Assembly (NCBI RefSeq): GCF_026151205.1
Contig: NC_087076.1
Location: 1,311,692 to 1,375,691, forward strand
Reading direction: 5' to 3'
Source of the DNA: Bolinopsis microptera
Lineage: Eukaryota > Ctenophora > Tentaculata > Lobata > Bolinopsidae
DNA length: 64,000 nucleotides
The notes under the pieces are model-generated. The model was not told where the DNA came from. It did no database searches and saw only the letters and a list, made by a program, of their open reading frames with translations. Numbering within the stretch: the first letter of the stretch is position 1; each line of letters starts with the position of its first letter. The position numbers and the translations under genes were made by a program. Positions 10,876 through 48,404 of this stretch are shown here, one piece after another.

Positions 10876-12571
10876 TAGGCTATCCATTATCGGTATGAAA
10901 TCTTTTATCTAGATAAACAGATAAAAATTTAGGTTTTATCTAGATAAAACCGATAAAACCGATAATTTTTCTGCTGAAGGCCAAAGCCAAAATGTTTTCC
11001 AAATTTCACAAAAACTGATTGTCGACTTTTATTACTGTTTACCAGTAATCTTGCTAAAGTACAATTTCCTTTCTTTTGAAAATATTAGAGCATCAGTTTT
11101 CTTCTCCGGGGAACAATAGTGTACCAGTTCTCTTCAAAACAGTAGACCAACGGTTTGTCTTCTCCTAAGAACAGTAGTGTACCAGTTCTCTTCAAAACAG
11201 TAGATCACCGGTTTCCTTCTCCTAAAAACAGTAGTGTACCAGTTCTCTTCAAAACAGTAGACCAAGGGTTTCCTTCTCCTGAGAACAGTAACGCACTAGT
11301 TCTCTTCAAAACAGTAGACCACCGGTTTCCTTCTCCTGAGAACAGTAACGCACTAGTTCTCTTCAAAACAGTAGACCACCGGTTTCCTTCTCCTGAAAAC
11401 AGTAGTGCAACAGTTCTCTTCAAAACAGTAGACCACTGGTATCCTTCTCCTGAGAACAGTAATGCACTAGTTCTCTTCAAAACATTAGACCACCGGTTTC
11501 CTTCTCCTGAGAACAGTAACGCACTAGTTCTCTTCAAAACAGTAGACCACCGGTTTCCTTCTCCTGAGAACAGTAGTGCACCAGTTCTTTTCAAAACAGT
11601 AGACCAAGGGTTTCCTTCTCCTGAGAACAGTAACGCACTAGTTCTCTTCAAAACAGTAGACCACCGGTTTCCTTCTCCTGAGAACAGTAACGCACTAGTT
11701 CTCTTCAAAACAGTAGATCACCGGTTTCCTTCTCCTGAGAACAGTAGTGCACCAGTTCTCTTCAAAACATTAGACCACCGGTTTCCTTCTCCTGAGAACA
11801 GTAGTGCACCAGTTCTCTTCAAAACAGTAGACCACCGGTTTCCTTCTCCTGAGAACAGTAGTGCACCAGTTCTCTTCAAAACATTAGACCACCGGTTTCC
11901 TTCTCCTGAGAACAGTAGTGCACCAGTTCTCTTCAAAACAGTAGACCACCGGTATCCTTCTCTTGAGAACAGTAGTGCAACAAATACCAATTCTCCTCGA
12001 AACAGTAAAACATTTAAAGTGATTCAGTGAACCGTTTCCTTATCCTGTGGATAACTTGGAGCAACAGATTCCTTCTCCTGAAGACAATGTTTCACGCCTA
12101 GAACACTTACGGAATTTAATTGAGTGCCCTGCCGCCTGCCGGTATTTTTGACTCTTGTTAACAGTAACATGCTCGTTCCTGTCTCCAGAATGGTTCAAGT
12201 AAGGTAGAACGCCAGCACCCTAGCCTCAACTTCAAGATAACAATGTTAATAACTTTCTCTAGACTTTTACAGTTCTACAGTTCTACAGTTCCATAGGTAT
12301 ACAAATGTAAATAAACCTCTTAAGCTCACATTTAAGTAAACTACCTCTTCTATCATACTATAAAACGTTTGGGACTGTTTCTTGGATTACTTGGGAAGGC
12401 AAAAAACACTAATATTTCTTTAAAATTTTACGGTATTGTGGCAGTTTTTTCGGTAATTTCTAGTGAATTTTTATACCGATAAAAATATGTTTTATCTAGA
12501 TAAACAGATATCCTTTTTTAACGAATTATCGGAGATAATTATCGGTAACGATTATCGGAGTGGATAGCCTA
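10876..12571. mobile_element. hAT-like element, 8-bp duplication ATTTTGAG
   Basis: Inverted ends TAGGCTATCC and GGATAGCCTA are flanked by exact 8-bp copies ATTTTGAG (10868-10875 and 12572-12579), as expected of hAT insertion. Subterminal regions are rich in TTATCGG and TTTATCTAGATAAA motifs. The interior is a 57-bp minisatellite with no recognisable transposase. It inserted into the older TTAA element. Confidence 0.8.
11092..11985. repeat. 57-bp minisatellite, about 16 copies
   Basis: The unit contains CTTCTCCTGAGAACAGTA and GTTCTCTTCAAAACAGTAGA. Because 57 is a multiple of three, long frames stay open on both strands: a 19-aa repeat with FPSPENS and VLFKTVDHR on plus, and LLFSGEGNRWSTVLKRT on minus. 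Openness on both strands argues that the frames are a by-product. No upstream coding context was found. Confidence 0.9.
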
Positions 12572-17440: not shown

Positions 17441-19442
17441 ACCAAAACCCATAATCATGGGTAGAGTGGACCGCTGCCAGTGTCTCTCTTTCCCAAACAA
17501 AAGGAAATGATATTAATTTGATTGACCGTTTTCAAATGCAAAATGATACCGAGAATGAAATCGGTCGCTCGCTTTTCCCATTCATTCACGGCTTATACGA
17601 ATTGCAATAGGTTTCGATAAATTACATCGATCACATGCTGTAATAATCTCTTTGGGTTGCGTTCGGGTCGATACCTAGTATTTCGGGATAAGGGTGGTAG
17701 TTAGTGAATTAGCTGAAGTTTATTGAATCTTTATTGCCGAGTACAGCTGTCTTCGGGTATGGTAGTTCTTCTTAATCTATTACATTTGTAAATGAATGGG
17801 AAAAGCGAGCGACCGATTTCATTCTCGGTATCATTTTGCATTTGAAAACGGTCAATCAAATTAATATCATTTCCTTTTGTTTGGGAAAGAGAGACACTGG
17901 CAGCGGTCCACTCTACCCATGATTATGGGTTTTGGTCAAATATCATCGCTTTTTGATTAATGTCAGGGTACTTTATAAAGTCGAAATATAAACTGATATC
18001 TTCATTAATAAGGAGGAAGTTTCAACGATTTCGAAATTTTTCCTTTGAAAACATTTCCTTGTGTTTGGGTAAGCATATCGGTCGATCACTGACTGAATTT
18101 GCCACTTTATACTCATTCAAGTTGGCATTAAATTTATATATAATGACATTGAACTGTCGTGGTAAAGCAGAATTTGTTCGAAATCACGAATGAGCAAAAT
18201 GATCACCTTTCGCACGTGCAAACTATGAGCGGACGTTGCGTGCGCATCCAATATTGAATCGCCGTAAATTTTTGCGTGTTGGTGTTTTATATATAGTTTG
18301 ATAAGCATGCAAAGTTTCAAAGTATTTCAAGAAGAACTATAATCACAACGGCACACCAACGTTTACAGAAAATGGTAAAAACAGCAATTTTCAGTGATTT
18401 TAGCAATTTTTAATCAATTTGGGCGTGTCCCCACTCCCCACGTGTGCAACTTTTAGATTTTCAACTTTAAAACTAGCCTAATACACAATTTATACCTATA
18501 GGAAGCAGAACTGAGCTCCACAACCCAAGGGATAGCCCAACACCAGAGAATACTAAATCGCAAAATTGACGTTTTTATAAAATAATTCTTCAAAAAAGCA
18601 CTAACTTCAATGGCAAATATCTTTATGAAGGAGCAAGGTAGGGAAACTTTCCGGTAGATTTTCAGAATGCTTGAACAATTATCTAATATTAAAATGTCCT
18701 CAGATTTTGAATAAAATTACTCCTTAATGGTGTAAAATCAGTTTGAAAAGTTGTTATTTTGTCAAAAATCAAGTTTTAAAAACACTTAATTTGATGACGT
18801 CATCAAGTGGTGATGATGACGTTAAATTATTTTTTGATATAATTGAAACTGAGGTGTAAACAATTATCTTTAAGACCTGTGGTCGGAAATTGCTGTATCT
18901 TTTATACTTTTGAATCTCCGGACACTTAAATTCAGGCTACAATTGACTACATTTGACTGGCAAAGCGTCTATCCCTGAATATATGTATCACGATAATCTA
19001 TCGTAAAACAGGGGTTCCAGAAAACCCATTTCCCGATACTCCTAAAACACGAAATTTTTTTACAGTCGATTTGGTCAACGTCTAGACGCCCTGCAAAGTT
19101 TCAGATCTTTAACTTAATTTTAACATGGTTTTTAAGGCACCTGAATATGGCAATTTTGGGTTTTTTACCGAATTTCGTATAACATGCTGGCGCTTATTTT
19201 GCGCAAATTTCTTAAAAACCTCCACATAACTATTTCTTGTTCCTGTCATCTTTAACATTGAATTAGAATGATTTTAACTTAAATAAACCTGCTGAACTAC
19301 TTTCGATGAGTCTTAATGCCCGAAAAACAATAAAGGGTTATAAAAGTAAAGGGGGTAAATAGTAAAGGGGGTAAATAGTAAAGGGGGTAAATAGTATTGT
19401 GAATATAAGAAGCACGGTCATGCTTGCCAGCATTGTGATTAT
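16695..19442. mobile_element. Foldback element with about 400-bp terminal inverted repeats
   Basis: The ends TCACAATGCTGGCAAGCA and TGCTTGCCAGCATTGTGA are followed inward by tandem TTTACCCCCTTTACTA motifs. Long inverted arms run 16920-17345 and 19005-19410. The interior has no coding frame I recognise. A shorter foldback MITE lies inside. Further copies, more rearranged, start at 25445 and 26134. This copy preserves the target into which the giant palindrome inserted elsewhere (around 18003-18030). Confidence 0.75.
17437..17941. mobile_element. Nested foldback MITE (GACCAAAACCCATAATC ends)
   Basis: The arms 17437-17590 and 17790-17941 are inverted copies sharing CCATAATCATGGGTAGAGTG and GGTCGCTCGCTTTTCCCATT. 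It is preceded by a (TA)n run at 17401-17437. Another complete copy is at 47875-48278 and a single arm is at 49291-49475. Confidence 0.8.
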
Positions 19443-29199: not shown

Positions 29200-29205
29200 C
29201 TTATT
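29200..29205 (+). repeat. Target-site duplication CTTATT, left
   Basis: Identical to 47798-47803. The related uninserted repeat at about 18003-18030 reads (as complement) CCTCCTTATTAATGAAG with a single copy. Confidence 0.9.
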
Positions 29206-30137
29206 TATGGTGGCCGAGGTGGGTCATTGTAAATTATTTCAAAATAAATTTAGAAAACCAAAAAAAACCAAAAAATAACCAAACTTTAAAAAAATAAACC
29301 AAAAATAAATTTAAAAAAAAACAAAAAAAAAACTAAACTAAAAAAAACTTTAAAAAAACCAAAAAAAAAACAATTTAAAACAATAAAAAACCAAAAAAAA
29401 AAAAAAAACCAAAAAAAATTTAAAAAAAACCAAAAAAAATTCAAAACAAAAATGAAATCGCTCCATATGGCCGAAATGTGCCATCAGCAGTCCTCACTGC
29501 GCGCCACAAAGAACGTACGTTGCGCGCGCGCGCAGATGTCTACAATTGTACCAAATGGCGATCGCGCTAACGCGTGCTTATTGTTCCCTCACGTGTAGTC
29601 TGATCCAGTTATTATTATCCACCTATTATTGTCCTCAGGTGAAATATATATGGCATACCGATAAACTCCTGTATTTGACGTGTGATTTAAGCGTGCTTGA
29701 AAACGACTGCAGACATTAGGTTATTGAGATTGAGTTCAGCATCTTGCCCGGCCCCATTGGCCGGACAAATCTCTATATAAATTTGTGTTCAAAGTTGGGA
29801 GATTACTTGGGCTTTTTATATTTTGTAGGATGATGTTAGCAGTGAAACAAAAATGTCATCAAAGTCAATAATTTAATAATCAGACCCATATATAAAACAA
29901 CCAAGTATATGTTATAATTTAACAAAACATTGTAGTAGGATGATGTTAGCAGTGAAACAAACATTTTATCATAATAACTTACTTCGTATTCTAATCCTTA
30001 GAAAAGAATTGTACCAACTTTATAATTTACGGAGTTTAACATTTAAACTTTTAAGTTAACTTGAAATCCTTATAACATGATTTTATGGGTAATGGCTGGC
30101 TGTATCGAAGAAAAAACAGTACAAAAACCAACAGAAG

Positions 30138-30484
30138 AATCAAACCCACATATAAAACAACCAAGTAAATGTTATAATTTAACAAAACATTGTAGTTCTG
30201 CTAAAAAGAATTCAATGTTAAAATTTAATGTTTAAAATTGAATGTTAAAAATCTAAAAATCAATTTCATGCGTTTAATCGAGGTTTAAATGTGTTTAACC
30301 AACCAAGTAAATGTTAAAACAACCAGGTAAATGTTATAATTTAACAAAACATTGTAGTTCTGCTAAAAAGAATTCAATGTTAAAATTTAATGTTAAAATT
30401 TAATGTTAAAAATTGAATGTTAAAAATCTAAAAATCAATTTCATGCGTTTAATCGAGGTTTAAATGTGTTTAACCAACCAAGTA
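30138..30484. repeat. About 180-bp tandem duplication in left arm only
   Basis: Two copies of a block containing AAATGTTATAATTTAACAAA and AATCGAGGTTTAAATGTG. The right arm has one (46690-46860). It arose after the arms diverged. Confidence 0.75.
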
Positions 30485-30579
30485 AATGTTAGTACAAAAA
30501 CCAACAGAAGCTTTTTTACGATATTTATAACTAAACGTTCTTTATTAATAAAATCTCGGCCTCAACGAGACGGAAATTA

Positions 30580-33500
30580 TCAAAATCTGGTATCTCGATA
30601 GACCGCTTCCCTTATTCGTGTGTATTCCGCTTTAACCCCACTTAACTGAAGTTCCTGAAACGGGTAAATATTTTAGCAAAAACGTTGCCTAACTATTACA
30701 TGTTCATAGCCAGTCATTATTACGTGTTCATAGCCAGTCATCGGAGTAAGATATATATATATATTCCAGTTGCTTTTAGAACAATTTTATCTCAGATAAC
30801 GATGTTTAATAAAATGATGCAAAGACTTGTTTCGAAGATCTATTCAACACCGACTTTTAATGTGTAGGAGTACAGCTACAAAATATATATATATACGACA
30901 AACGATAACAATTAATATGAGAGGGGAAGTAGGATGCATTTGAAGACACTTACTGCTATCCGAGGGAGAGCAGCAACGAGGTATTCAGACGCCAACTCCG
31001 AATTAATTTTAATACCAGTAAAAACGTTGGACAAAATATCAGCGTCAGTGAAACTCTCTATATCCTTGTCAGAAAGCATGATTCCACACTCCTGAATGAT
31101 GGGGGGGGTGTCATGTCCGTCTATGTCCGCCTATGTCCTGTCCTTTTTGGATTCTATGAGACAACGGACGTGTTTTTTGGGACATTGGCGGACACGGACG
31201 GACATTGGCGGACTTGGACGGACATTGGCGGACTCGGACGGACATTGGCGGACCCGGACGGACATTGGCGGACTTGGACGGACATTGGTGGACATTAGCG
31301 GACATTGGTGGACATTAGCGGACAAACATTTTGAGGACTGAAGAGTACTGAAGAGTACTGAAGAGTACTGTGGAGGATGGCTGAGGAGGATGGCTGAGGA
31401 GGATGACTGAGGAGGATGACTGAGGAGGATGACTGAGAGGGAGGAGAAGGATCAGGAAGACCCAGGAGGAGGACCTAGGAGGAGGAGGAGGAGAACTGAG
31501 GAGGATGACTGAGGAGGAGGAGGACTCAGGAGGACCCAGAAGGAGGAGGAGGAGGAGGACCCAGAAGGAGGACCTAGGAGGAGGAGGAGGAGAACTGAGG
31601 AGGATGACTGAGGAGGAGGAGGACTCAGGAGGAGGACTGAGAAGGAGGAGGACTGAGGAGGATGGCTGAGGAGGATGGCGGAGGAGGATGACTGAGAGGG
31701 AGGAGGAGGAGGAAGAGGACTGAGGAGGAGGAGGAGAAGGACTGAGGAGGAGAAGGAGGACCCAGGAGGAGGAGGACCCAGGAGGAGGAGGACCCAGGAG
31801 GAGGAGGACCCAGGAGGAGGACCCAGGAAAAGGCCCCAGGAGGAGGAGGAGGACTGGGGAAGAGGAGAACTGTTGAGGACTGATGAGGAGGACTGAGGAC
31901 GAGGAGGAGGAGTAGGAGGAGGACTGAGGAGGGGAGGAGGAAGAGGACTGGGGAGGATCAGGAAGACCCAGGAGGACCCAGGAGGAGGAGGAGGACCCAG
32001 GAGGAGGAGGAGGACTGAGGAGGAGGACTGACGATGACTGAGAAGGAGGAGGACTGAGGAGTACTGAGGAGAATGGCTGAGGAGGATGGCTGGGGAGGAT
32101 GGCTGAGGAGGATGACTGAGGAGGATGACTGAGGAGGATGACTGAGAGGGAGGAGAAGGATCAGGAAGACCCAGGAGGAGGAGGAGGAGGAGGACCCAGA
32201 AGGAGGACCTAGGAGGAGGAGGAGGAAGGCTGAGGAGGATGACTGAGAGGGAGGAGGAGGAGGAAGAGGAGGAAGAGGACTGAGGAGGAGGAGAAGGACT
32301 GAGGAGGAGAAGGAGGACCCAGGACCTCAGCAGAGGCACATATTAGGTGCGGTAAAAAAATCGAAATTATGCGGTACCGCACCCGACTATAAAGGTAAAA
32401 TGTGCGGTAAGGTGCGGTAAATTTTAACCAATTATGCGGCAAATGTGCGGCGATTTTTCGAAATTTGTGCGGGAATTGTGCGGTTTTCTTTTGCATTTTC
32501 TCAAGGACTTTGGAAATTCTAAACGTATAACCGCCGCTCTTATAAAAAATAGGTCTGTTTATGTGTTACTGAGGGTGTAGTTCTTTACTAAGACTATGAT
32601 TGAACCTATATTGAGATTCAGTTATCTGAGAACAGTGACTTGATCTGGTAGAGATCAGGAGACAGTTGTTTGAAGACGCCTCTTGATAGAGTCGATCAGA
32701 TCCCATGCGTGATCGCAAATATGTGACACGCTTGTTGGCATTGATTGTCAGTACTTGTGAACCATTTGATCCAAGATCCATTAAGCCCACAATAAAGCCT
32801 ACGCTACATTCTACAACGAATAAAGCTCATTACCCTTTACACCTACTTCTTCTATTATGGGATACTGAAGGGAAAGGAAGCAGTTCTAGTAGCGCTTCTC
32901 AAACACAAGTATATATCTTGTGAATTCGGCTAGTATATATGAAACATTTGACACGGAGTTGCAGAGTGAGCTATGTGCCTCGCCGGGTTAAAGTAATGGG
33001 TGTCCTTGCTGTACGGTATGTTAAACAAGGAACTGAAACTACTAGGTTCCGTACAGGTTCAACTCTGCACTCATGTCAATATGTTCAAATGCAAGCCTCT
33101 TGATTTATTATCACCTACTTTGGATCATAGAATCTACTCAACAACTTCAACCCCTGATATAGAGTAATCAAATGTGGTGAAGTTACGAATGATAACTGAT
33201 ACACTATAATCGAAGTACGGTAACGACGAGGGTTCCAGAACGGCCTGGTTCACGGTCCCGAAAGGGCCTGAGTCAGGGTCCCGAAAGGGCCTGGGTAACG
33301 GTCCCGAAAGGGCCTCGGTCACGTGGTAACCGGGTCACGTGGCCTAAGCATGAGTTCCAAAAGGGCCTGGGTCACGGTCCCGAAAGGGCCTGGGTCAGGG
33401 TCCCGAAAGGGCCTGAGTCACGGTCCTATTATATAAAAGGGCCCGACTTTTAACATATTTTAGTTTTTACACTCGAAAATCTTAACGCGAAAATTTCAAA

Positions 33501-36500
33501 ATTATGCAAAATTACGCGGAAAATGCTAGATTATGCGGAAATATGCAGATAATCACAAAATGTGCGGAAATGTGCGGAAAACAATAAATTATGCGGAAGT
33601 GTGCGGAAAACGGTAAATTGTGCGATCCCGCACCCATCGCACCTAATATGTGCCCATGAGTCCCAGGAGGAGGAGGACCCAGGACGAGGAGGACCCAGGA
33701 GGACCCAGGAAAAGGCCCCAGGAGGAGGAGGAGGACTGGGGAGGAGTAGGACTGTTGAGGACTGATGAGGAGGACTGAGGACGAGGAGGAGGAGTAAGAG
33801 GAGGACTGAGGAGGGGAGGAGGAAGAGGACTGGGGAGGATCAGGAAGACCCAGGAGGAGGAGGAGGAGGAGGATCAGGAGGAGGACCCAGGAGGAGGAGG
33901 AGGACTGAGGAGGACTGAGGAGGAGGACTGACGATGACTGAGAAGGAGGAGGACTGAGGAGTACTGAGGAGGATGGCTGAGGAGGATGGCTGGGGAGGAT
34001 GGCTGAGGAGGATGACTGAGGAGGATGACTGAGAGGGAGGAGGAGGAGGACTCAGGAGGGAGAGGAGGAGGAGGACTCAGGAGGAGGACTTGGGAGAAAT
34101 GAGAAGGAGGACTGAGGAGAACTGAGGAGGAGGAGGAGGAGGAGGAGGAGGAGGAGGAGGAGGAGGAGGAGGACTGAATAGGAGGAGAAGGAGGGGGACT
34201 GGGAGAGGACTGGGGAGGAGGAGGACTGATGAGAAGGATGAGGAGGAGGACCCAGGAGGAGGAGGACCCAGGACCGAGGAGGAAGAGTAGGAGGATGAAG
34301 AGGAGGAGGAGGACTCAGGAGGAGGAGGACTCAGGAGGAGGACTGAGGAGGATTGCTGAGGAGGATGACTGACAGGGAAGAGGAGGACTGAGAAGGAGGA
34401 GGACTGAGGAGGAGGAGGAGGAGGATGGCTGAATAGGAGGAGGAGGGGGACTGGGGGAGGACTGAGGAGGAGGATGGAGGACTGAGGAGAAGGATGAGGA
34501 GGAGGACTGAGGACTGAGGAGGAAGAGGAGGAGGAGGACCCAGGAGGAGGACCCAGGAGGAGGACTCAGGAGGAGGAGGAGGACTGGGGAGGAGGAGAAC
34601 TGTTGAGGACTGATGAGGAGGACTGAGGACGAGGAGGAGGACTGAGGAGGGGAGGAGGAAGAGGACTGAGGAAGATCAGGAAGACCCAGGAGGAGGAGGT
34701 GGAAGAGTAGGAGGAGGAAGCATCTGAATGTTATTTCCATTTTTGTCCGTTTTTGTCCATTTTTGTCCGCTCTATTTTTTGTCCGTTTTGAAAATATAGG
34801 GTACCGAACGGACAAAAAACATGATCCCCCTATAACAGCAAAAATTGAACATTTTATTTAGCAATTTAGGTGTCCATTAATGTCCGTATATGTCCGTCTA
34901 TGTCCGCCAATGTCCGCCTATGTCCGTCTATGTCCGCCTATGTCCGTCTATGTCCGCCTATGTCCGCCTATGTCCGCCTATGTCCTGTCCTTTTTGGATT
35001 CTATGAGACAAGCGGACATAGACGGACGTGACACCCCCCCCAATGATAAATAATACCTGATAATTAATAAGAGAGGGGAAAATAAATAAAAATTGGGCCC
35101 AGATAATGGGTTTTCTGTCTGCTAATTTGTATAGCTATGATTGGGTTGTTTTTGTTTGCTAATTTATCTGATTGCGTTAGCCAACACTGTTGACGGTTTT
35201 TAGTAAAGAATAATTCATTGGATCTAATCAAACTAACCTCTCCGCCGTACTCTTCTGGGCACGAATACACATGCTCAGGGATTGTTCCTGATGGAAGTTC
35301 CACGTTGCGCTGCTTTCTTCCCCTGAACAGATTTATTAGATTATTAGATATGCACTTAAAGAGGCCTCATGTAGCCTCCAGGCTCGAAAAACCCCGAAAA
35401 ACCCCGACACACCCCGAAAAACCCCGACAAACCCCGACACACCCCGACATATCCCGACAAACCCCGACAAACCCCGACGTGTCGAGATATGTCAGGGTAT
35501 GTCGGATTATGTCAGTTTGCCCCAATAATTTCAAACCCCGACACACGCCGAAATATCCCGACAAACCCCGACATATCCCGACAAACTTCGACAAACCCCG
35601 ACAAACTCCGACACACCCCGACAAACCCTGACAAACCCCGACAAACCCCGACGTGTCGAGATATGTCGTATCATGTCGGGCCAACCGGCTACACGAGGCC
35701 TTTAAAGACATCCTATATGTTGTTTCTATTCTTGAATGTTTTCAGTAATTTCGTATTGCAGTTTACTATAAATTTATAAAGTTATAATCCTACCTCATAT
35801 TGTTATGGTTCTCCCTGAATTCGTCGAGATAACGTTCGACAACAGGTATGAACACACCAGCAATTAAATCCCTGTCATACTCGCAACTTGAATCATACAG
35901 ACCGTCTTGATCAATCTCTCTAAGTACGTGACGAAAACCATCACAAACCTTTTCGCGGACCTGTCAGCATTTTTTACTTGGAAAATGGGGACAAACTATG
36001 GTATAAGTAAGGAAACGGACTTTGCTTTGCCTATGTTTGTTTCTTGTCGACAAATAATTGTTTTGAAAACGGTTGTGACCTAAGAAGTGAGCAAGATCTA
36101 ACCAGATTTAGCAAACATTTCACTCCAACTATTGCCTACCTGCCTCCACAATCGTTCTATTTTGTTGGCAGTAGAAGGACCAAGTATCGTTGTAATCTCC
36201 TTGTCAACATTTTTCAGTTGCAATAGAGTTTTCTGAAAAACAAGAGTGAAAACAAGCAGAATCCTGCGGTCTAACACCATAGCTTTAAGGTACGTATTGA
36301 AATTTAATATGGAAACAGCATTTGTAGCAGACATGGCACAGGGACAGTAGGCAGTAGAATATATAAAAAACGCCTTGGAAAATTAACTCACGTGTACAGC
36401 TGCAGCATGGACGGTCTCAGTTCCTTTGTCAAATCGAAGCATTTGCGGTAAAACTCTAGATTCCAGCAGATGGTCAAACAAAATACGTCCAATAACTTCA

Positions 36501-38639
36501 CTGTCTCTATTAGACCGCCCAATGTACAAGAAGATGATTTTCCTACTGTAAGTATCAAGGGCCCTGTGAAAAATTAAAAAGAATTAATAACGCTAGCATA
36601 TCGCCCGACCTAAGAACCAACTTTATAAATATAATGAAATCTTATCATGATGATCAGCAATGTTTAAATTATGAATTACTTTAATTTAAGCATCCCTCCC
36701 CATCACCTCTTAATAAAATACACTGCTAAAAATACATTGTTTAACTGTTTCATACTCAACAGCTATAAATTCACCCTTCTCCCAAAAGTCTTCCTCCGAG
36801 CTTTTCTCCCTGTTACATGATAGATAAGATTTGTTTGATTTGTTCAAGCTCCCCGTCAAGATTGAAGGGCCTTAATTTTGCTCACATCATTTCTACAGTC
36901 TAAAACTTATATCATAGTTTGGTTATATTCTGTGTTTAAGCCCCTTGCCAAAATTAAAAGATCGGTACCACGCTATAGTCTATACACTCTACAGGGGCAG
37001 AACACCAAATAGGTGCTACAGTATAGTGATATAACTGATTGGCTGATAAGGGGGAAATCTTATCCAATGCTGTGCTCCCATACTGTCACATGATGCACTC
37101 AATCTCATCACGTAGTGTGTGCGCTCATGTCACGTGACAATATTCAGTCAGGTGCACCGTGCACACACTCAATCATGGTTATACAACATACACATGATAT
37201 GCGCCCAGAAATGCCCAGCAGGGTTATCTTTCTAGCTGATGTTGACAGTGGGATTACCCGTTTAATCCCGCCCCTTATGAGCCATCCCGCCCCTTTCAAA
37301 ACATCATGAAGGAATTTATAAGTTGTGGGATGGTATAAAAACAATTAGAGCTCAGCAATGGCATGTTTTCACACAAACAAGAAATGTAACATACCCATAT
37401 ATTTTGAGGTCGAATTGGCAGTTGGCATCCCCACTTAACTTGTCATGGCCATCCAGACTCCGTAAGTAGTTTGGCCCCTTGCTGAAGAAGGTCTTCTTAG
37501 GCCTCTTATTCTTGAACTTTGGAGTGCGCATAACAACACCTTGTGGATCAACTAACCTTAGTGTATTCATAACATCATCTCTCGATACGAAGAGGCCTTG
37601 AGACCTGCAACAAGGAACAGTGAATATACTGAATATCGATAAATAAGGTGTATATATACACATATATGCATTATACCGTTCCTCAACATCGTGATGCCAT
37701 TGTTTTAATACTACTTCAAGGCGCCTCAATTATTATAAAAATGTTTACTCCTTTTTTCATTGACGTGTTTAAATATTTTAACTTGTTACATTAACACTAC
37801 AAATTTGCCCTTTTTAGTGTACCTTAGTTTTTCAGTCACATCCCGGTATCCTAATTGGCCCGAACTTTCGTTAACAACATTCTGTACCGCCGTCAGCAAA
37901 GTATGATCATCAACATCATTGTGTCGTTTAATGTTCCAGTGATTCAGCATTCTGCAAAGCACTTATTAGTGAAACTTTTAGTTTTACTGAAAATGTTTTG
38001 TTTTACTCAATCAATCCATGTGTATTGTGTACACATATGCACAACAGATTTTTGTTTTTAATATGTGGTCATTTGGTAAAGTATAAGTGTCGGTGTTAAT
38101 CTTTAGTTCAAATACCAGTGAGGTAGATCGTAGAGGGCTGAGGGAGTGGAAGGTTTTTCGTCAGAAATATGAAAATTCAAAACCCATTCGATATGTTCAT
38201 AGTAACTTGACTAGACTTAAACGCACTTGTGTGCTCATGAGTGTAATGAAGGAGGGTCCAATAAGAGTTAAATACACGGCGCAATTCTGCAACGTTTTAC
38301 GTTGACATAGCAAAACTGAACTGCACATTGAATGAGGGTCCAATAGGGGCGCGAGCAATTTTGCTATGTAAATATAACAAAATTGCGCCCCGCATTAGAC
38401 CCTCGTTCATTGCATCTATGAGCACACATGCAGTAATGAACAGTAAACACGATTTCCATTAATTTACAATGTTCATTGTCTGCATTATACCTTTTTACAG
38501 TGCGTTCTGAATAAGCCCTGTAGTTGGGGAACTTCTTTGGCAGGAGTGAAGTAATCTCGCTGCAAGTATAGTTGGATGCTCTTGAAGCCTCCAAAAAGTG
38601 TCTCAGATCTTCGTCTCCCATCCATGCTGGACCATCCAT
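30580..38639 (-). CDS. rve-type integrase/transposase, left-arm copy
   Basis: Minus-strand exons: 38639-38491, 37951-37823, 37604-37395, 36563-36392, 36232-36140, 35960-35794, 35322-35238, 31091-30954 and 30654-30580. They encode the same 405-codon protein as the right arm. Differences: the right-arm motif GPNYLWSLDGHDKL reads GPNYLRSLDGHDKL here, changing a Trp next to the first catalytic Asp that the family normally conserves. In addition, intron 7 holds a 3.94-kb insertion ending 3 bp before the exon 8 acceptor CAG. The element's own C-run replaces the lost pyrimidine tract, so splicing might survive. The frame is otherwise open. It is probably a weakened copy. Confidence 0.75.
32331..33658. 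mobile_element. hAT-like element nested in the purine satellite
   Basis: The ends CAGAGGCACATATTAGGTGC and, inverted, CATGGGCACATATTAGGTGC are followed by many TGCGGTAAA/TGCGGAAA subterminal motifs. The 8 bp outside do not match cleanly. The interior includes the dispersed repeat at 32930-33108 and a GGTCCCGAAAGGGCCTG minisatellite. No transposase. Confidence 0.55.
33230..33430 (+). repeat. GGTCCCGAAAGGGCCTG minisatellite
   Basis: About seven copies of a roughly 26-bp unit built around the imperfect palindrome GGTCCCGAAAGGGCC. Confidence 0.85.
35384..35680. repeat. AACCCCGACA minisatellite, intron 6, left arm
   Basis: 10-bp-based tandem repeat lying between exons 6 and 7 of the integrase gene, mirrored at 45450-45748 in the other arm with a few substitutions and a small length difference. 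Confidence 0.9.
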
Positions 38640-40064
38640 GACATATACCTATATTTTATGTTCTCATGTTGTGAAATTATTCATGGGACAAAGCAATATC
38701 ACAAATTACTTTGCAATAATGTCCTAGTTGCACACAATATTTTGATGATATTCAACTTCATTATTTGTTATTTGGTAATGCAGAAGGTATTTTAACAGTA
38801 TTAATACCCTACTATATAATGAAGATCATCAAAAGGCACTGAAAGAAAAATTTTTATTTTTTTGAAAGAAAAATTTTTATTTACCACAAAACAATCAAAA
38901 CATAATGTTATATTCATAAATAAAATCAAATTTCAATTTCAACCACATATACAGTACGCCGCGCACACAGCCACTATTTTGGTGGGCGTTCTTATAGTTC
39001 TACTGTTCCATATCTTCCAAAGATGGATACTAGGCTCAGGTTACTTGGCTCAGATCTCGTGTCTTCTGATGCTTTGAGAGGGCCTGACATGGTTCAGATC
39101 TCGAGCCTTGGGTCGGATCTCGATGTTTGAGGATCGTATCCTTTTCGGCACGCTTTGTAAACACATAAGCTTGTTAGATCAGATCTTGCGAAAGGCACCT
39201 GAGACCTTGTCATCTATTAGTACGCTTGTTATACAGATCGGATCAATACATAAGAAAGAGAGATGGTGGTCGCAGAATCTAATTATGATTGTCTTCAGCA
39301 AGTACATCCGCTGACAAAGAGGAGCTCAACTACTTCTGGAGTCTGGACACAGACGGTGTCCTCAACACCCGGAGAAAGGATCGAGATACCCTACTACCTC
39401 TACCTGGAGATGCCAGAGGTACAGAATCAAGAAATGTCCTGCTCATGTAATCCTTGACCATGGAGATCAGTCCTTGGCCAGCGGTGCCAAACCTCATTCC
39501 CACGACCCTGACAACTTAAAGTTAAACTAGAGCGGTATTTGGAAACCTGTTTATCTTTTAGTTATTTCTAACTGACGATTGGGTTCAGTTGTCGTTTCAA
39601 AGTTAATTAGGTAAACTGATTGGGTTTTTAATTATTTTCCCAAGCTACCCTGTCTAGGAAAAGTCCAAATTGGGTTCAGTTGTCCGGTAGCCTTTGAGGA
39701 GCTATAAAATAATGACATAATACATCTTACAATATCATACATTTAAAACACCATGAGGAGAAGTTAAACATAACTTTCGAGATACAAATCGAAAAGTTCA
39801 AACATCCAGACAAGATATTACTTACTATTAAGTATATGTGCTCCCAAAAAGTCTTAACGGCCATCTAACACCATGCTAGTAGCCAGCTGTTACAGTAATA
39901 GCCCAGCCCTCTTACACCCCTCTAATAGCCATAACACCACCAGTAGTTATCAGGTATAATCCACGATTCTGCCTTCACTGATTATCAACCAGTGTCCAAA
40001 ATTATTTAATAAAGGATATTAACATCACACCATTTATCCCCAATCGACAAAGATCATATTCCAA

Positions 40065-40280
40065 ATGTCTTCAAAAACTACAGACCATTGTCAAACCTTG
40101 AGAAAATTGATTGAAAGAAAAGGCTACAGGAGCAATGAGCATGTAATGATAATCTCAATTTTCCAGACTCTACTTCTGGACAATATGCTTACAAAAGAGA
40201 TCATAAATGGGTACTCCACATCAAAGAGAATACATGAAAACATAATTAGTAATCAAATTACACATCAAAAAGATAACTAA
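40065..40280 (+). other. 71-codon open frame, mirrored at 40856-41071
   Basis: An identical frame is present in both arms next to the palindrome centre, pointing inward. Its start reads MSSKTTDHCQTLRKLIERKG and it has no family match I recognise. It could be a small accessory protein of the element or a chance frame in terminal-like DNA. Confidence 0.3.
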
Positions 40281-40548
40281 ATAGGGTGAAAAGGAGTTTC
40301 GAAATGCAACAATAATACTAAAAAACAACCTAGGTATTTTTGTGAAAATATGACAGTATCTGCTTTAGCGCTCGATTTTCATACCACGGTGTAAATTTTC
40401 GAAAATATGCGCGGCGCGCCTAAAATTTTGGTTCTATTAAAAATAAATTTTTTGGTCAAAATTATATTTAATATATTGAAATTAGTTGTTATTACAGATA
40501 TATGTTAAAATATTTCCAAAATATAGAATATAAGTACCCAAAATAAAA

Positions 40549-40587
40549 TGCGCGCAAAAAAGTCAAAATTTTAACACTTTTTTGGAT
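40549..40587. other. Central spacer of the giant palindrome
   Basis: This 39-bp asymmetric core, including GCGCGCAAAAAAGTC, separates the two arms. Pairing of the arms starts at 40548/40588. Confidence 0.85.
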
Positions 40588-42496
40588 TTTTATTTTGGGT
40601 ACTTATATTCTATATTTTGGAAATATTTTAACATATATCTGTAATAACAACTAATTTCAATATATTAAATATAATTTTGACCAAAAAATTTATTTTTAAT
40701 AGAACCAAAATTTTAGGCGCGCCGCGCATATTTTCGAAAATTTACACCGTGGTATGAAAATCGAGCGCTAAAGCAGATACTGTCATATTTTCACAAAAAT
40801 ACCTAGGTTGTTTTTTAGTATTATTGTTGCATTTCGAAACTCCTTTTCACCCTATTTAGTTATCTTTTTGATGTGTAATTTGATTACTAATTATGTTTTC
40901 ATGTATTCTCTTTGATGTGGAGTACCCATTTATGATCTCTTTTGTAAGCATATTGTCCAGAAGTAGAGTCTGGAAAATTGAGATTATCATTACATGCTCA
41001 TTGCTCCTGTAGCCTTTTCTTTCAATCAATTTTCTCAAGGTTTGACAATGGTCTGTAGTTTTTGAAGACATTTGGAATATGATCTTCGTCGATTGGGGAT
41101 AAATGGTGTGATGTTAATATCCTTTATTAAATAATTTTGGACACTGGTTGATAATCAGTGAAGGCAGAATCGTGGATTATACCTGATAACTACTGGTGGT
41201 GTTATGGCTATTAGAGGGGTGTAAGAGGGCTGGGCTATTACCGTAACAGCTGGCTACTAGCATGGTGTTAGATGGCCGTTAAGACTTTTTGGGAGCACAT
41301 ATACTTAATAGTAAGTAATATCTTGTCTGGATGTTTGAACTTTTCGATTTGTATCTCGAAAGTTATGTTTAACTTCTCCTCATGGTGTTTTAAATGTATG
41401 ATATTGTAAGATGTATTATGTCATTATTTTATAGCTCCTCAAAGGCTACCGGACAACTGAACCCAATTTGGACTTTTCCTAGACAGGGTAGCTTGGGAAA
41501 ATAATTAAAAACCCAATCAGTTTACCTAATTAACTTTGAAACGACAACTGAACCCAATCGTCAGTTAGAAATAACTAAAAGATAAACAGGTTTCCAAATA
41601 CCGCTCTAGTTTAACTTTAAGTTGTCAGGGTCGTGGGAATGAGGTTTGGCACCGCTGGCCAAGGACTGATCTCCATGGTCAAGGATTACATGAGCAGGAC
41701 ATTTCTTGATTCTGTACCTCTGGCATCTCCAGGTAGAGGTAGTAGGGTATCTCGATCCTTTCTCCGGGTGTTGAGGACACCGTCTGTGTCCAGACTCCAG
41801 AAGTAGTTGAGCTCCTCTTTGTCAGCGGATGTACTTGCTGAAGACAATCATAATTAGATTCTGCGACCACCATCTCTCTTTCTTATGTATTGATCCGATC
41901 TGTATAACAAGCGTACTAATAGATGACAAGGTCTCAGGTGCCTTTCGCAAGATCTGATCTAACAAGCTTATGTGTTTACAAAGCGTGCCGAAAAGGATAC
42001 GATCCTCAAACATCGAGATCCGACCCAAGGCTCGAGATCTGAACCATGTCAGGCCCTCTCAAAGCATCAGAAGACACGAGATCTGAGCCAAGTAACCTGA
42101 GCCTAGTATCCATCTTTGGAAGATATGGAACAGTAGAACTATAAGAACGCCCACCAAAATAGTGGCTGTGTGCGCGGCGTACTGTATATGTGGTTGAAAT
42201 TGAAATTTGATTTTATTTATGAATATAACATTATGTTTTGATTGTTTTGTGGTAAATAAAAATTTTTCTTTCAAAAAAATAAAAATTTTTCTTTCAGTGC
42301 CTTTTGATGATCTTCATTATATAGTAGGGTATTAATACTGTTAAAATACCTTCTGCATTACCAAATAACAAATAATGAAGTTGAATATCATCAAAATATT
42401 GTGTGCAACTAGGACATTATTGCAAAGTAATTTGTGATATTGCTTTGTCCCATGAATAATTTCACAACATGAGAACATAAAATATAGGTATATGTC

Positions 42497-45400
42497 ATGG
42501 ATGGTCCAGCATGGATGGGAGACGAAGATCTGAGACACTTTTTGGAGGCTTCAAGAGCATCCAACTATACTTGCAGCGAGATTACTTCACTCCTGCCAAA
42601 GAAGTTCCCCAACTACAGGGCTTATTCAGAACGCACTGTAAAAAGGTATAATGCAGACAATGAACATTGTAAATTAATGGAAATCGTGTTTACTGTTCAT
42701 TACTGCATGTGTGCTCATAGATGCAATGAACGAGGGTCTAATGCGGGGCGCAATTTTGTTATATTTACATAGCAAAATTGCTCGCGCCCCTATTGGACCC
42801 TCATTCAATGTGCAGTTCAGTTTTGCTATGTCAACGTAAAACGTTGCAGAATTGCGCCGTGTATTTAACCCTTATTGGACCCTCCTTCATTACACTCATG
42901 AGCACACAAGTGCGTTTAAGTCTAGTCAAGTTACTATGAACATATCGAATGGGTTTTGAATTTTCATATTTCTGACGAAAAACCTTCCACTCCCTCAGCC
43001 CTCTACGATCTACCTCACTGGTATTTGAACTAAAGATTAACACCGAAACTTATACTTTACCAAATGACCACATATTAAAAACAAAAATCTGTTGTGCATA
43101 TGTGTACACAATACACATGGATTGATTGAGTAAAACAAAACATTTTCAGTAAAACTAAAAGTTTCACTAATAAGTGCTTTGCAGAATGCTGAATCACTGG
43201 AACATTAAACGACACAATGATGTTGATGATCATACTTTGCTGACGGCGGTACAGAATGTTGTTAACGAAAGTTCGGGCCAATTAGGATACCGGGATGTGA
43301 CTGAAAAACTAAGGTACACTAAAAAGGGCAAATTTGTAGTGTTAATGTAACAAGTTAAAATATTTAAACACGTCAATGAAAAAAGGAGTAAACATTTTTA
43401 TAATAATTGAGGCGCCTTGAAGTAGTATTAAAACAATGGCATCACGATGTTAAGGAACGGTATAATGCATATATGTGTATGTATACACCTTATTTATCAA
43501 TATTCAGTATATTCACTGTTCCTTGTTGCAGGTCTCAAGGCCTCTTCGTATCGAGAGATGATGTTATGAATACACTAAGGTTAGTTGATCCACAAGGTGT
43601 TGTTATGCGCACTCCAAAGTTCAAGAATAAGAGGCCTAAGAAGACCTTCTTCAGCAAGGGGCCAAACTACTTATGGAGTCTGGATGGCCATGACAAGTTA
43701 AGTGGGGATGCCAACTGCCAATTCGACCTCAAAATATATGGGTATGTTACATTTCTTGTTTGTGTGAAAACATGCCATTGCTGAGCTCTAATTGTTTTTA
43801 TACCATCCCACAACTTATAAATTCCTTCATGATGTTTTGAAAGGGGCGGGATGGCTCATAAGGGGCGGGATTAAACGGGTAATCCCACTGTCAACATCAG
43901 CTAGAAAGATAACCCTGCTGGGCATTTCTGGGCGCATATCATGTGTATGTTGTATAACCATGATTGAGTGTGTGCACGGTGCACCTGACTGAATATTGTC
44001 ACGTGACATGAGCGCACACACTACGTGATGAGATTGAGTGCATCATGTGACAGTATGGGAGCACAGCATTGGATAAGATTTCCCCCTTATCAGCCAATCA
44101 GTTATATCACTATACTGTAGCACCTATTTGGTGTTCTGCCCCTGTAGAGTGTATAGACTATAGCGTGGTACCGATCTTTTAATTTTGGCAAGGGGCTTAA
44201 ACACAGAATATAACCAAACTATGATATAAGTTTTAGACTGTAGAAATGATGTGAGCAAAATTAAGGCCCTTCAATCTTGACGGGGAGCTTGAACAAATCA
44301 AACAAATCTTATCTATCATGTAACAGGGAGAAAAGCTCGGAGGAAGACTTTTGGGAGAAGGGTGAATTTATAGCTGTTGAGTATGAAACAGTTAAACAAT
44401 GTATTTTTAGCAGTGTATTTTATTAAGAGGTGATGGGGAGGGATGCTTAAAATTAAAGTAATTCATAATTTAAACATTGCTGATCATCATGATAAGATTT
44501 CATTATATTTATAAAGTTGGTTCTTAGGTCGGGCGATATGCTAGCGTTATTAATTCTTTTTAATTTTTCACAGGGCCCTTGATACTTACAGTAGGAAAAT
44601 CATCTTCTTGTACATTGGGCGGTCTAATAGAGACAGTGAAGTTATTGGACGTATTTTGTTTGACCATCTGCTGGAATCTAGAGTTTTACCGCAAATGCTT
44701 CGATTTGACAAAGGAACTGAGACCGTCCATGCTGCAGCTGTACACGTGAGTTAATTTTCCAAGGCGTTTTTTATATATTCTACTGCCTACTGTCCCTGTG
44801 CCATGTCTGCTACAAATGCTGTTTCCATATTAAATTTCAATACGTACCTTAAAGCTATGGTGTTAGACCGCAGGATTCTGCTTGTTTTCACTCTTGTTTT
44901 TCAGAAAACTCTATTGCAACTGAAAAATGTTGACAAGGAGATTACAACGATACTTGGTCCTTCTACTGCCAACAAAATAGAACGATTGTGGAGGCAGGTA
45001 GGCAATAGTTGGAGTGAAATGTTTGCTAAATCTGGTTAGATCTTGCTCACTTCTTAGGTCACAACCGTTTTCAAAACAATTATTTGTCGACAAGAAACAA
45101 ACATAGGCAAAGCAAAGTCCGTTTCCTTACTTATACCATAGTTTGTCCCCATTTTCCAAGTAAAAAATGCTGACAGGTCCGCGAAAAGGTTTGTGATGGT
45201 TTTCGTCACGTACTTAGAGAGATTGATCAAGACGGTCTGTATGATTCAAGTTGCGAGTATGACAGGGATTTAATTGCTGGTGTGTTCATACCTGTTGTCG
45301 AACGTTATCTCGACGAATTCAGGGAGAACCATAACAATATGAGGTAGGATTATAAATTTATAGTAAACTGCAATACGAAATTACTGAAAACATTCAAGAA

Positions 45401-46600
45401 TAGAAACAACATATAGGATGTCTTTAAAGGCCTCGTGTAGCCGGTTGGCCCGACATGATACGACATATCTCGACACGTCGGGGTTTGTCGGGGTTTGTCA
45501 GGGTTTGTCGGGGTGTGTCGGGGTTTGTCGGGGTTTGTCGAAGTTTGTCGGGATATGTCGGGGTTTGTCGGGATATTTCGGCGTGTGTCGGGGTTTGAAA
45601 TTATTGGGGCAAACTGACATAATCCGACATACCCTGACATATCTCGACACGTCGGGGTTTGTCGGGGTTTGTCGGGATATGTCGGGGTGTGTCGGGGTGT
45701 GTCGGGGTTTTTCGGGGTGTGTCGGGGTTTTTCGGGGTTTTTCGAGCCTGGAGGCTACATGAGGCCTCTTTAAGTGCATATCTAATAATCTAATAAATCT
45801 GTTCAGGGGAAGAAAGCAGCGCAACGTGGAACTTCCATCAGGAACAATCCCTGAGCATGTGTATTCGTGCCCAGAAGAGTACGGCGGAGAGGTTAGTTTG
45901 ATTAGATCCAATGAATTATTCTTTACTAAAAACCGTCAACAGTGTTGGCTAACGCAATCAGATAAATTAGCAAACAAAAACAACCCAATCATAGCTATAC
46001 AAATTAGCAGACAGAAAACCCATTATCTGGGCCCAATTTTTATTTATTTTCCCCTCTCTTATTAATTATCAGGTATTATTTATCATTCAGGAGTGTGGAA
46101 TCATGCTTTCTGACAAGGATATAGAGAGTTTCACTGACGCTGATATTTTGTCCAACGTTTTTACTGGTATTAAAATTAATTCGGAGTTGGCGTCTGAATA
46201 CCTCGTTGCTGCTCTCCCTCGGATAGCAGTAAGTGTCTTCAAATGCATCCTACTTCCCCTCTCATATTAATTGTTATCGTTTGTCGTATATATATATATA
46301 TTTTGTAGCTGTACTCCTACACATTAAAAGTCGGTGTTGATTAGATCTTCGAAATAAGTCTTTGCATCATTTTATTAAACATCGTTATCTGAGATAAAAT
46401 TGTTCTAAAAGCAACTGGAATATATATATCTTACTCCGATGACTGGCTATGAACACGTAATAATGACTGGCTATGAACATGTAATAGTTAGGCAACGTTT
46501 TTGCTAAAATATTTACCCGTTTCAGGAACTTCAGTTAAGTGGGGTTAAAGCGGAATACACACGAATAAGGGAAGCGGTCTATCGAGATACCAGATTTTGA
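42497..46600 (+). CDS. rve-type integrase/transposase, right-arm copy
   Basis: Exons: 42497-42645, 43185-43313, 43532-43741, 44574-44745, 44905-44997, 45177-45343, 45807-45891, 46091-46228 and 46526-46600. They total 1218 nt (405 aa), and all phases are consistent. An N-terminal helical region is followed by VDPQGVVMR. The integrase core then begins with GPNYLWSLDGHDKL (first Asp). Next come ALDTYSRKIIFLYIGR, RFDKGTETVHAAAV (second Asp) and STANKIERLWRQ (Glu). This order matches the integrase-core protein family common in animal genomes (Pfam integrase core, rva_4-type as I recall). It is inferred to be the transposase of the palindromic element that carries it. The start ATG lies just after CATATACC-type sequence at the inner side. 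No disabling change was seen. Confidence 0.88.
45450..45748. repeat. TCGGGGTTTG minisatellite, intron 6, right arm
   Basis: Mirror image of 35384-35680. Near-identity of a normally unstable repeat implies recent arm duplication or ongoing arm-to-arm conversion. Confidence 0.9.
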
Positions 46601-47797
46601 TAATTTCCGTCTCGTTGAGGCCGAGATTTTATTAATAAAGAACGTTTAGTTATAAATATCGTAAAAAAGCTTCTGTTGGTTTTTGTACTAACATTTACTT
46701 GGTTGGTTAAACACATTTAAACCTCGATTAAACGCATGAAATTGATTTTTAGATTTTTAACATTCAATTTTTAACATTAAATTTTAACATTGAATTCTTT
46801 TTAGCAGAACTACAATGTTTTGTTAAATTATAACATTTACTTGGTTGTTTTATATGTGGGTTTGATTCTTCTGTTGGTTTTTGTACTGGTTTTTCTTCGG
46901 TACAGCCAGCCATTACCCATAAAATCATGTTATAAGGATTTCAAGTTAACTTAAAAGTTTAAATGTTAAACTCCGTAAATTATAAAGTTGGTACAATTCT
47001 TTTCTAAGGATTAGAATACGAAGTAAGTTATTATGATAAAATGTTTGTTTCACTGCTAACATCATCCTACTACAATGTTTTGTTAAATTATAACATATAC
47101 TTGGTTGTTTTATATATGGGTCTGATTATTAAATTATTGACTTTGATGACATTTTTGTTTCACTGCTAACATCATCCTACAAAATATAAAAAGCCCAAGT
47201 AATCTCCCAACTTTGAACACAAATTTATATAGAGATTTGTCCGGCCAATGGGGCCGGGCAAGATGCTGAACTCAATCTCAATAACCTAATGTCTGCAGTC
47301 GTTTTCAAGCACGCTTAAATCACACGTCAAATACAGGAGTTTATCGGTATGCCATATATATTTCACCTGAGGACAATAATAGGTGGATAATAATAACTGG
47401 ATCAGACTACACGTGAGGGAACAATAAGCACGCGTTAGCGCGATCGCCATTTGGTACAATTGTAGACATCTGCGCGCGCGCGCAACGTACGTTCTTTGTG
47501 GCGCGCAGTGAGGACTGCTGATGGCACATTTCGGCCATATGGAGCGATTTCATTTTTGTTTTGAATTTTTTTTGGTTTTTTTTTAATTTTTTTTGTTTTT
47601 TTTTTTGTTTTGGTTTTTTATTGTTTTAAATTGTTTTTTTTTTGGTTTTTTTAAGTTTTTTTTAGTTTAGTTTTTTTTTTGTTTTTTTTTAAATTTATTT
47701 TTGGTTTATTTTTTTAAAGTTTGGTTATTTTTTGGTTTTTTTTGGTTTTCTAAATTTATTTTGAAATAATTTACAATGACCCACCTCGGCCACCATA

Positions 47798-47803
47798 CTT
47801 ATT
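47798..47803 (+). repeat. Target-site duplication CTTATT, right
   Basis: Exact copy of 29200-29205. After it, the foldback-element sequence AATGAAGATATCAG resumes as in the uninserted copy. Confidence 0.9.
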
Positions 47804-47874
47804 AATGAAGATATCAGTTTATATTTCGACTTTATAAAGTACCCTGACATTATAATCAAAAAGAGATGATATTT

Positions 47875-48278
47875 TACCAAAACCCATAATCATGGGTAGA
47901 GTGGACCGCTGTCAGTGTCTCTCTTTCCCAAACAAAAGGAAATGATATTACTTTGATTGACCGTTCTCAAATGCAAAATGATACCGAGAATGAAATCGGT
48001 CGCTCGCTTTTCCCATTCATTTACAATTGTAATAGATTAAGAAAAACTACCCAAAGGCAGCTGTACTCGGCAATGAAGATTCAATAAACTTCAGCTTGTT
48101 CAATTAGTAATAACTACCACCCTTGTCCCTGGGAAAATGGGAAAAGCGAGCGACTGATTTCATTCTCGGTATCATTTTGCATTTGAGAACGGTCAATCAA
48201 ATTAATATCATTTCCTTTTGTTTGGGAAAGAGAGACACTGGCAGCGGTCCACTCTACCCATGATTATGGGTTTTGGTA
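47875..48278. mobile_element. Foldback MITE, second complete copy
   Basis: The inverted arms share ACCAAAACCCATAATCATGG and CGGTCGCTCGCTTTTCCCAT with 17437-17941. It is nested in the foldback repeat just right of the giant palindrome. Confidence 0.8.
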
Positions 48279-48404
48279 AAATTACTGTATAATATGTTAT
48301 AGCTGCATTTAAGTAGCGTCATAATTGGATTAGCCCAGAAGATTCGCTGTAATGTTATACCATAAGCTTATTAGGGGAGGGGGGACTGTTAGTGTTTGGA
48401 CTGC

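Follow-up and report, generated by a model that had tools for sequence, protein, structure and literature searches.

We analysed a window of 64,000 nucleotides from the genome of the lobate ctenophore Bolinopsis microptera (264.65 Mb), which is part of the contig referred to here as C5. This window contains a palindromic DNA transposon of 18,592 bp (positions 29206-47797), with TATGG...CCATA ends and a transposase gene in each of its two inverted arms. Very probably, an autonomous-type transposon of the IS3EU/GingerRoot type became a near-perfect palindrome and moved as one unit, and its arms were then kept alike by conversion.

The left arm (arm a; 29206-40548, 11,343 bp) begins with TATGGTGGCCGAGG, and the right arm (arm b; 40588-47797, 7,210 bp) has CCATA at its end. 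The extra length of the left arm is due to a nested later insertion of 3,941 bp in its intron 7 (31101-35041), with GGGGGGGGTGTCA...TGACACCCCCCCC ends and its own target-site duplication (TSD), AATGAT, at 31095-31100 and 35042-35047. The arms are joined via TAAAA/TTTTA at a central loop of 39 nt (40549-40587), which exhibits an inner hairpin (AAAAAAGT/ACTTTTTT). Inverted repeats of up to 3,869 bp were 100% identical (rounded) beside this spacer, with values near that further out, and the two arms differed at 16 of the 7207 alignable positions (2 of the 16 being less than 1 kb from the axis), plus indels. As in foldback elements, most of the element consists of long inverted repeats, with only the 39-nt spacer besides indels and one insertion. 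The 24-nt terminus, with up to 3 mismatches allowed, was found in the window at the two outer ends only; the inner ends are without TATGG.

The TSD CTTATT adjoins TATGG on the left (29200-29205) and follows CCATA on the right (47798-47803). When joined, the flanks aligned in a single alignment with window positions 18111-17912 (94.6% identity), a related repeat on the reverse strand (17912-18111) in which the insertion site is uninterrupted. Two further empty-site matches were found at another locus, L020 (97.5% and 89.9%). These results bear out an earlier note, made from the sequence alone, which had described an 18.6-kb palindromic transposon with arms of about 7.2 kb around a 39-bp spacer, a 6-bp CTTATT duplication at both flanks and an uninterrupted site at about 18.0 kb.

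To find other copies, the 361-bp centre of the palindrome was used as a query. Among the best 40 of 396 candidates, scored with full-length ones ranked first, this centre was present in full length at three places, namely the window and contigs C1 and C4. All three palindromes have TATGG...CCATA ends, with the TSDs CTTATT (window), CTACAC (C4) and GTCACCG (C1). An arm-specific DNA query of 1,621 bp, for which all seven candidates were scored, detected seven arms: two each on C5, C1 and C4, and one on C10. A protein search (94 out of 94 candidates scored) returned the same seven arms, together with diverged relatives whose matched stretches were 31-57% identical. No solo arm with two termini was observed among the seven.

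The TATGG...CCATA termini were found in all four long copies, as well as in a 3.1-kb copy on C11. This short copy (C11:10532034-10535124; loci L045 and L046), flanked by a CACATC duplication and exhibiting inverted repeats of more than 1.1 kb, is probably a non-autonomous foldback-like relative. The same ends and an individual 6- or 7-bp duplication in 3 of the 3 palindromic copies agree with the earlier proposal that the palindrome moved as one unit. The anticipated duplication length of 6 bp held in three of the five copies (window, C4 and C11) and failed in two, C1 and C10 reading 7 bp. Both of the forms whose coexistence had been raised, single-arm and palindromic, were found: 6 of the 7 close arms sit in palindromes and 1 sits in an asymmetric element.

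The transposase gene of arm b (42497-46600, forward strand) comprises nine exons and encodes 405 amino acids from the first ATG used. Eight of these exons were read directly, with AG/GT splice signals; the ninth (46526-46600) is in agreement with P0001, the public Bolinopsis microptera gene model (LOC134815582), whose C-terminus is the same. The transposase was 100% identical to LOC134815582 across the matched 98% of the query. The protein matched the Integrase core domain PF24764 (1.8e-23), which we take to be linked to IS3EU. Catalytic residues were assigned from the alignment as D144, D208 and E246; only one Cys was read from the translation upstream of D144, and there was no HHCC motif. 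The predicted structure, of moderate confidence (mean predicted local distance difference test score, 75.8), matched the DDE transposases TnsB, IstA and MuA (best E-value, 4.4e-06), with low global template-modelling scores (no higher than 0.37 in the 16 matches whose E-values were up to 0.001). A search of solved structures by sequence gave no match.

The gene of arm a (30580-38639, reverse strand) also has nine exons, at 38491-38639, 37823-37951, 37395-37604, 36392-36563 and 36140-36232 (exons 1-5) and at 35794-35960, 35238-35322, 30954-31091 and 30580-30654 (exons 6-9). Its frame is open, with one W141R change relative to arm b, adjoining the first catalytic Asp. The claim of a complete nine-exon D,D,E integrase in each arm was therefore correct as to the two open frames, and needs to be qualified for arm a by W141R and by the 3.9-kb insertion in intron 7. 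One of the C4 arms is open, with L385V; in the other, a deletion takes the end of exon 6 and the splice donor. The C1 arms share a 1-nt loss in exon 3, and the C10 transposase exhibits a 10-nt loss in exon 1. With the frame open in both window arms and in one C4 arm, these elements have not lost their transposase as foldback elements have. Relative to C10, differences were found at 10 of 1,208 positions in the exons and at 176 of 6,374 in the whole arm, as would be expected if the gene had been constrained during part of its history.

The single asymmetric arm lies in the C10 copy, a non-palindromic element of 18,150 bp with the duplication GGGAGAG. Its inverted terminal repeats are about 1.2 kb long (96%), and its transposase arm is on the right. 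The left part of about 10 kb showed no match to the palindromes; it contained a reading frame for an alpha-kinase (PF02816, 2.1e-22), together with a C-terminal hAT fragment. This alpha-kinase frame (L034, 1412-2290) adjoins the terminal repeat and is transcribed outward; partial relatives were observed elsewhere in the genome. Near its middle, the C10 copy contains a shortened member of an unrelated repeat family, which is about 8 kb long and starts with TAGTAGAGGCTC. A multi-copy repeat family of about 8 kb starting with TAGTAGAGGCTCTTACGGGC, with a shortened copy nested in the transposon, was observed at loci L011-L024.

The palindrome axis falls within this nested unrelated repeat. Junction sequences were compared for 13 copies of the repeat, and all eight of the loci examined (of 15) aligned unbroken with C10, from 11228-11288 to 11711-11897; each of these alignments spans the axis region of C10 (about 11505-11543). 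Because the unrelated repeat runs on across the axis in C10 and elsewhere, the asymmetric form is the older one and the palindrome is derived. When the two terminal repeats of C10 were compared for the one inherited by the palindrome, the latter matched the left at some sites and the right at others.

At the axis, the repeat sequence stops at GGATTTTTA and the mirror arm restarts at TTTTGGGTAC, with TTTTA common to both as a 5-nt microhomology; TAAAA and TTTTA enclose a loop of 39 nt. As far as sequence can tell, such a join would be the expected product of a 3' end folding back, or of two copied ends of the same arm joining, at a short inverted repeat. A single event of inverted copying is the most likely origin of the palindrome. 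For large palindromes, fold-back priming at short inverted repeats is described as an established route (PMC7999016).

The process might have started when an asymmetric element suffered a break or an abortive gap repair. At TTTTA/TAAAA, DNA synthesis coming from the transposase half would have reversed, giving the 39-nt loop, and the inverted copy of this half would have taken the place of the kinase half. The long terminal repeats could have assisted this in either of two ways: in aberrant gap repair, the left broken end could prime on the right-hand repeat, or a fold-back dimer could gain two usable ends from them. With two functional outer ends, the whole palindrome could have been mobilised by the transposase, and later conversion from arm to arm would preserve their likeness. 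Not only intact sequence but also insertions and inactivating changes would be spread in this way. We lean slightly towards gap repair over fold-back, because it would leave a normal target duplication at once. For the Galileo element, abortion, slippage and template switching have been invoked (PMC4168063), in line with the gap-repair route.

To characterize the relationship between arms, we compared them within and between copies. Within a copy, they differed at 16 of 7207 positions (window), 15 of 7859 (C4) and 73 of 6712 (C1). Between copies, the differences amounted to 21-26 of 7,155-7,369 positions for window versus C4, and 77-103 of 6,447-6,721 for C1 versus the others. Since a single early origin predicts that arms differ at least as much within as between copies, yet less difference was seen, these values argue for homogenisation of the arms. 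None of the 138 variable columns of the six-way alignment exhibited an arm-by-arm pattern across all three copies, and both arms of one copy were set apart from the rest in 41 columns for C1, 5 for C4 and 2 for the window. The approximately unbiased (AU) test rejected all four trees joining arms across all copies (log-likelihood difference, 232); for trees in which C1 was concerted and the window and C4 were arm-wise, the difference was 36.7 (AU p = 0.0015). In the unconstrained tree, the C1 arms were joined with a support of 100, as were the C4 arms (98).

Structural changes were likewise common to both arms of a copy. A 519-bp insertion was present in both C4 arms and in no window or C1 arm; a 220-bp insertion, accompanied by a duplication of its target stretch, was found in both C1 arms and was absent from the window, C4 and C10; and the 1-nt loss in exon 3 was restricted to the two C1 arms. 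The centre of C4 is GCGCGCATTTTA, an exact mirror of the opposite side, forming a symmetrical 24-bp stem with a 12-nt loop, while the window and C1 keep GGATTTTTA, like the nested repeat.

Arm differences were less frequent near the axis in C1 (10/4219 in the inner 4 kb versus 63/2493 in the outer part, p = 3e-18) and in C4 (1/4519 versus 14/3340, p = 6e-5). The outermost 210 bp are of low complexity; without them, the outer values were 45/2284 for C1 and 9/3142 for C4, and significance was kept. As a control, window arm b was compared with C10, which gave no gradient (inside 92/3448, outside 84/2926), so that sequence near the axis is not in itself slower to evolve. The divergence of C1 was patchy: between window arm b and C1 arm a, 1/999 and 1/1000 positions differed at 2-4 kb from the axis, and 17/787 and 25/797 at 5-7 kb, which makes sequence exchange between copies possible too. 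Two sites lie at 500 and 655 nt from the axis at which window arm a has the base of both C4 arms and arm b that of C1 and C10; this needs either an arm difference that predates the split of window and C4 and was carried through a jump, or a later exchange between copies. Taken together, the data support concerted evolution of the arms of one copy, with conversion apparently strongest near the axis in two of the three copies, and thereby the suggestion of the earlier note that the two gene copies convert each other.

Several observations weigh against this interpretation. The palindromic copies are limited to three, and the margin for C1 is small, its arms being 1.09% apart versus 1.15-1.25% between C1 arm a and the others. 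Trees with C1 concerted and the window and C4 arm-wise were not rejected by the Shimodaira-Hasegawa test (p = 0.15), and in the unconstrained tree the window arms were not together, the split that parts them having a support of 63. No gradient was detected in the window copy (inner 8/3999, outer 8/3208, p = 0.80). C10 has a larger gap at the site of the 519-bp insertion, and so gives no evidence on the novelty of the insertion. As regards formation, fold-back and aberrant gap repair have an identical product, and the hairpin at the axis of C10-like sequence was no more stable than in shuffled sequence (z = 0.11), so the site is not obviously predisposed.

Three separate palindromisations, each from its own asymmetric parent, would equally predict the copy-wise tree and the copy-specific insertions in both arms, with the likeness of the arms reflecting recent copying and not later conversion. 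We consider this unlikely, since the axis join is the same in the window and C1, with C4 apparently derived from it by one local change, and since a single asymmetric arm was found in the genome. The two sites shared by window arm a and C4 suggest an older arm difference, unless copies later exchanged sequence, and the axis gradients of C1 and C4 would be unexpected after one recent copying of the whole arm. With its two inverted units and a transposase gene in each, the element might also be taken for a composite transposon, in which two independent head-to-head insertions move together, as in bacteria. However, the inner ends lack the terminus, so that neither arm resembles a mobile unit, the arms are joined by microhomology with 39 nt between them, and no solo arm with two termini occurs among the seven; such an origin is very improbable.

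Long-read sequencing is known to yield palindromic chimaeric reads, and an error of reading or assembly might in principle have produced the same picture. Against this stand three loci with differing, non-mirrored flanks and exact target duplications, arms that differ by single-nucleotide polymorphisms, indels and a 3.9-kb insertion, and the existence of uninterrupted sites for the window copy. Mirror-image flanks, which would have betrayed a fold-back read, were looked for at the window copy: its flanks are not mirror images of each other, and its arms differ at 16 sites plus indels. We regard the probability of an artefact as almost negligible.

Within the preferred reading of one palindromised, mobile and converting transposon, a further step is tentative, and we hold it to be possible rather than probable: that the lineage propagates as a self-correcting palindrome, whose mirror arm would be at once terminal repeat, second gene copy and repair template. 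Conversion would proceed via a hairpin or cruciform at the axis, perhaps at each jump, as is suggested by the loop of C4 having become symmetrical. The three palindromes would then all go back to one palindromisation event, and share the genome with a single close asymmetric relative.

Other features were observed in and around these elements. The nested element at 31101-35041 has a GA-rich tandem interior and a relative in locus L013; read by eye, an apparent further inverted element is nested inside it at about 32350-33660. Just beyond the right end of the palindrome, a 147-bp inverted repeat (47871-48282, 98% complementary) is probably part of the repeat used as insertion target. Two diverged transposase relatives in opposite orientation (C5:6698988-6705800 and C5:6775563-6779358) lie about 70 kb apart. 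Sister-type ends (TATGGTGGCCGAGGAGG) were found as inverted pairs, with 15-33 kb from one end to the other, at C5:4835392-4860549, C7:1114431-1147956, C8:9483383-9498399, C8:14963921-14981834, C11:8055619-8075474 and C13:7277452-7306644. These six wide pairs of GAGGAGG-type ends gave no P0001-like transposase match at E-values up to 0.001, and might represent either large relatives that carry cargo or pairings due to chance.

The genomic diversity of ctenophores has been called undersampled (PMC11184263), and the present element adds to knowledge of their mobile DNA. It represents an end point of terminal-repeat growth, in which the repeat overtook the whole element together with its gene, without loss of mobility in the product. 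These natural copies allow palindrome formation, correction of the centre and arm conversion to be followed at single-base level. That both C1 arms have the same frameshift suggests that conversion between arms can spread damage and not only repair it.

IS3EU/GingerRoot transposons are characterized by TA...TA termini, a TSD of usually 6 bp and a DDE core whose first D lies 100-300 residues from the N-terminus, with no HHCC (PMC10045372); the passages compared do not mention a palindromic form. The element exhibits TA...TA termini, a TSD of around 6 bp, D144 in the appropriate position and no HHCC. Termini, duplication length and transposase type thus fit the IS3EU/GingerRoot type, and the DDE core likewise supports the link to IS3EU drawn in the earlier note. 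KolobokP (PMC9587614) was set aside, since its long repeats are described as direct rather than inverted, and the compared part of PMC12221973 contains nothing on this element. From titles and the starts of abstracts, retrieved partly with narrow phrases and from few subscription journals, no palindromic, foldback or doubled-gene transposon like this one was evident, so a published example is possible.

In the inverted composite transposons Tn10 and Tn5, two inverted transposase genes are moved as a unit by the outer ends. Each half of these is an insertion sequence with two ends, around a long middle, whereas inner ends are missing here. Sex-chromosome palindromes also have gene-carrying arms that are held near-identical by arm-to-arm conversion, but they are chromosomal and not mobile.

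Among eukaryotic transposons, Galileo of Drosophila, from the P superfamily, has long terminal inverted repeats, which change and take up sequence from inside the element, and pieces of its transposase frame (69 bp and more than 500 bp) are incorporated in both repeats, with no functional copy found (PMC4168063). Our element resembles Galileo, as described there, in having long terminal inverted repeats that take in internal sequence. However, only part of the gene was recruited in Galileo, whereas here the whole element was, including a complete spliced gene, with a loop of 12-39 nt left. The transposase superfamily also differs: no P-type transposase with a THAP domain was found, Pfam (E-values up to 0.01) returning only rva_4, rve and HTH_21, the last two below cut-offs. 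Tetris foldback elements are alike in their long inverted repeats with inner tandem repeats and suspected within-copy homogenisation, but their three complete copies are reported without conserved reading frames (PMC4079207), whereas the present palindromes carry the transposase gene twice. In the passages compared, the repeats of foldback and Galileo elements include at most part of a gene, and the architecture described here exceeds them.

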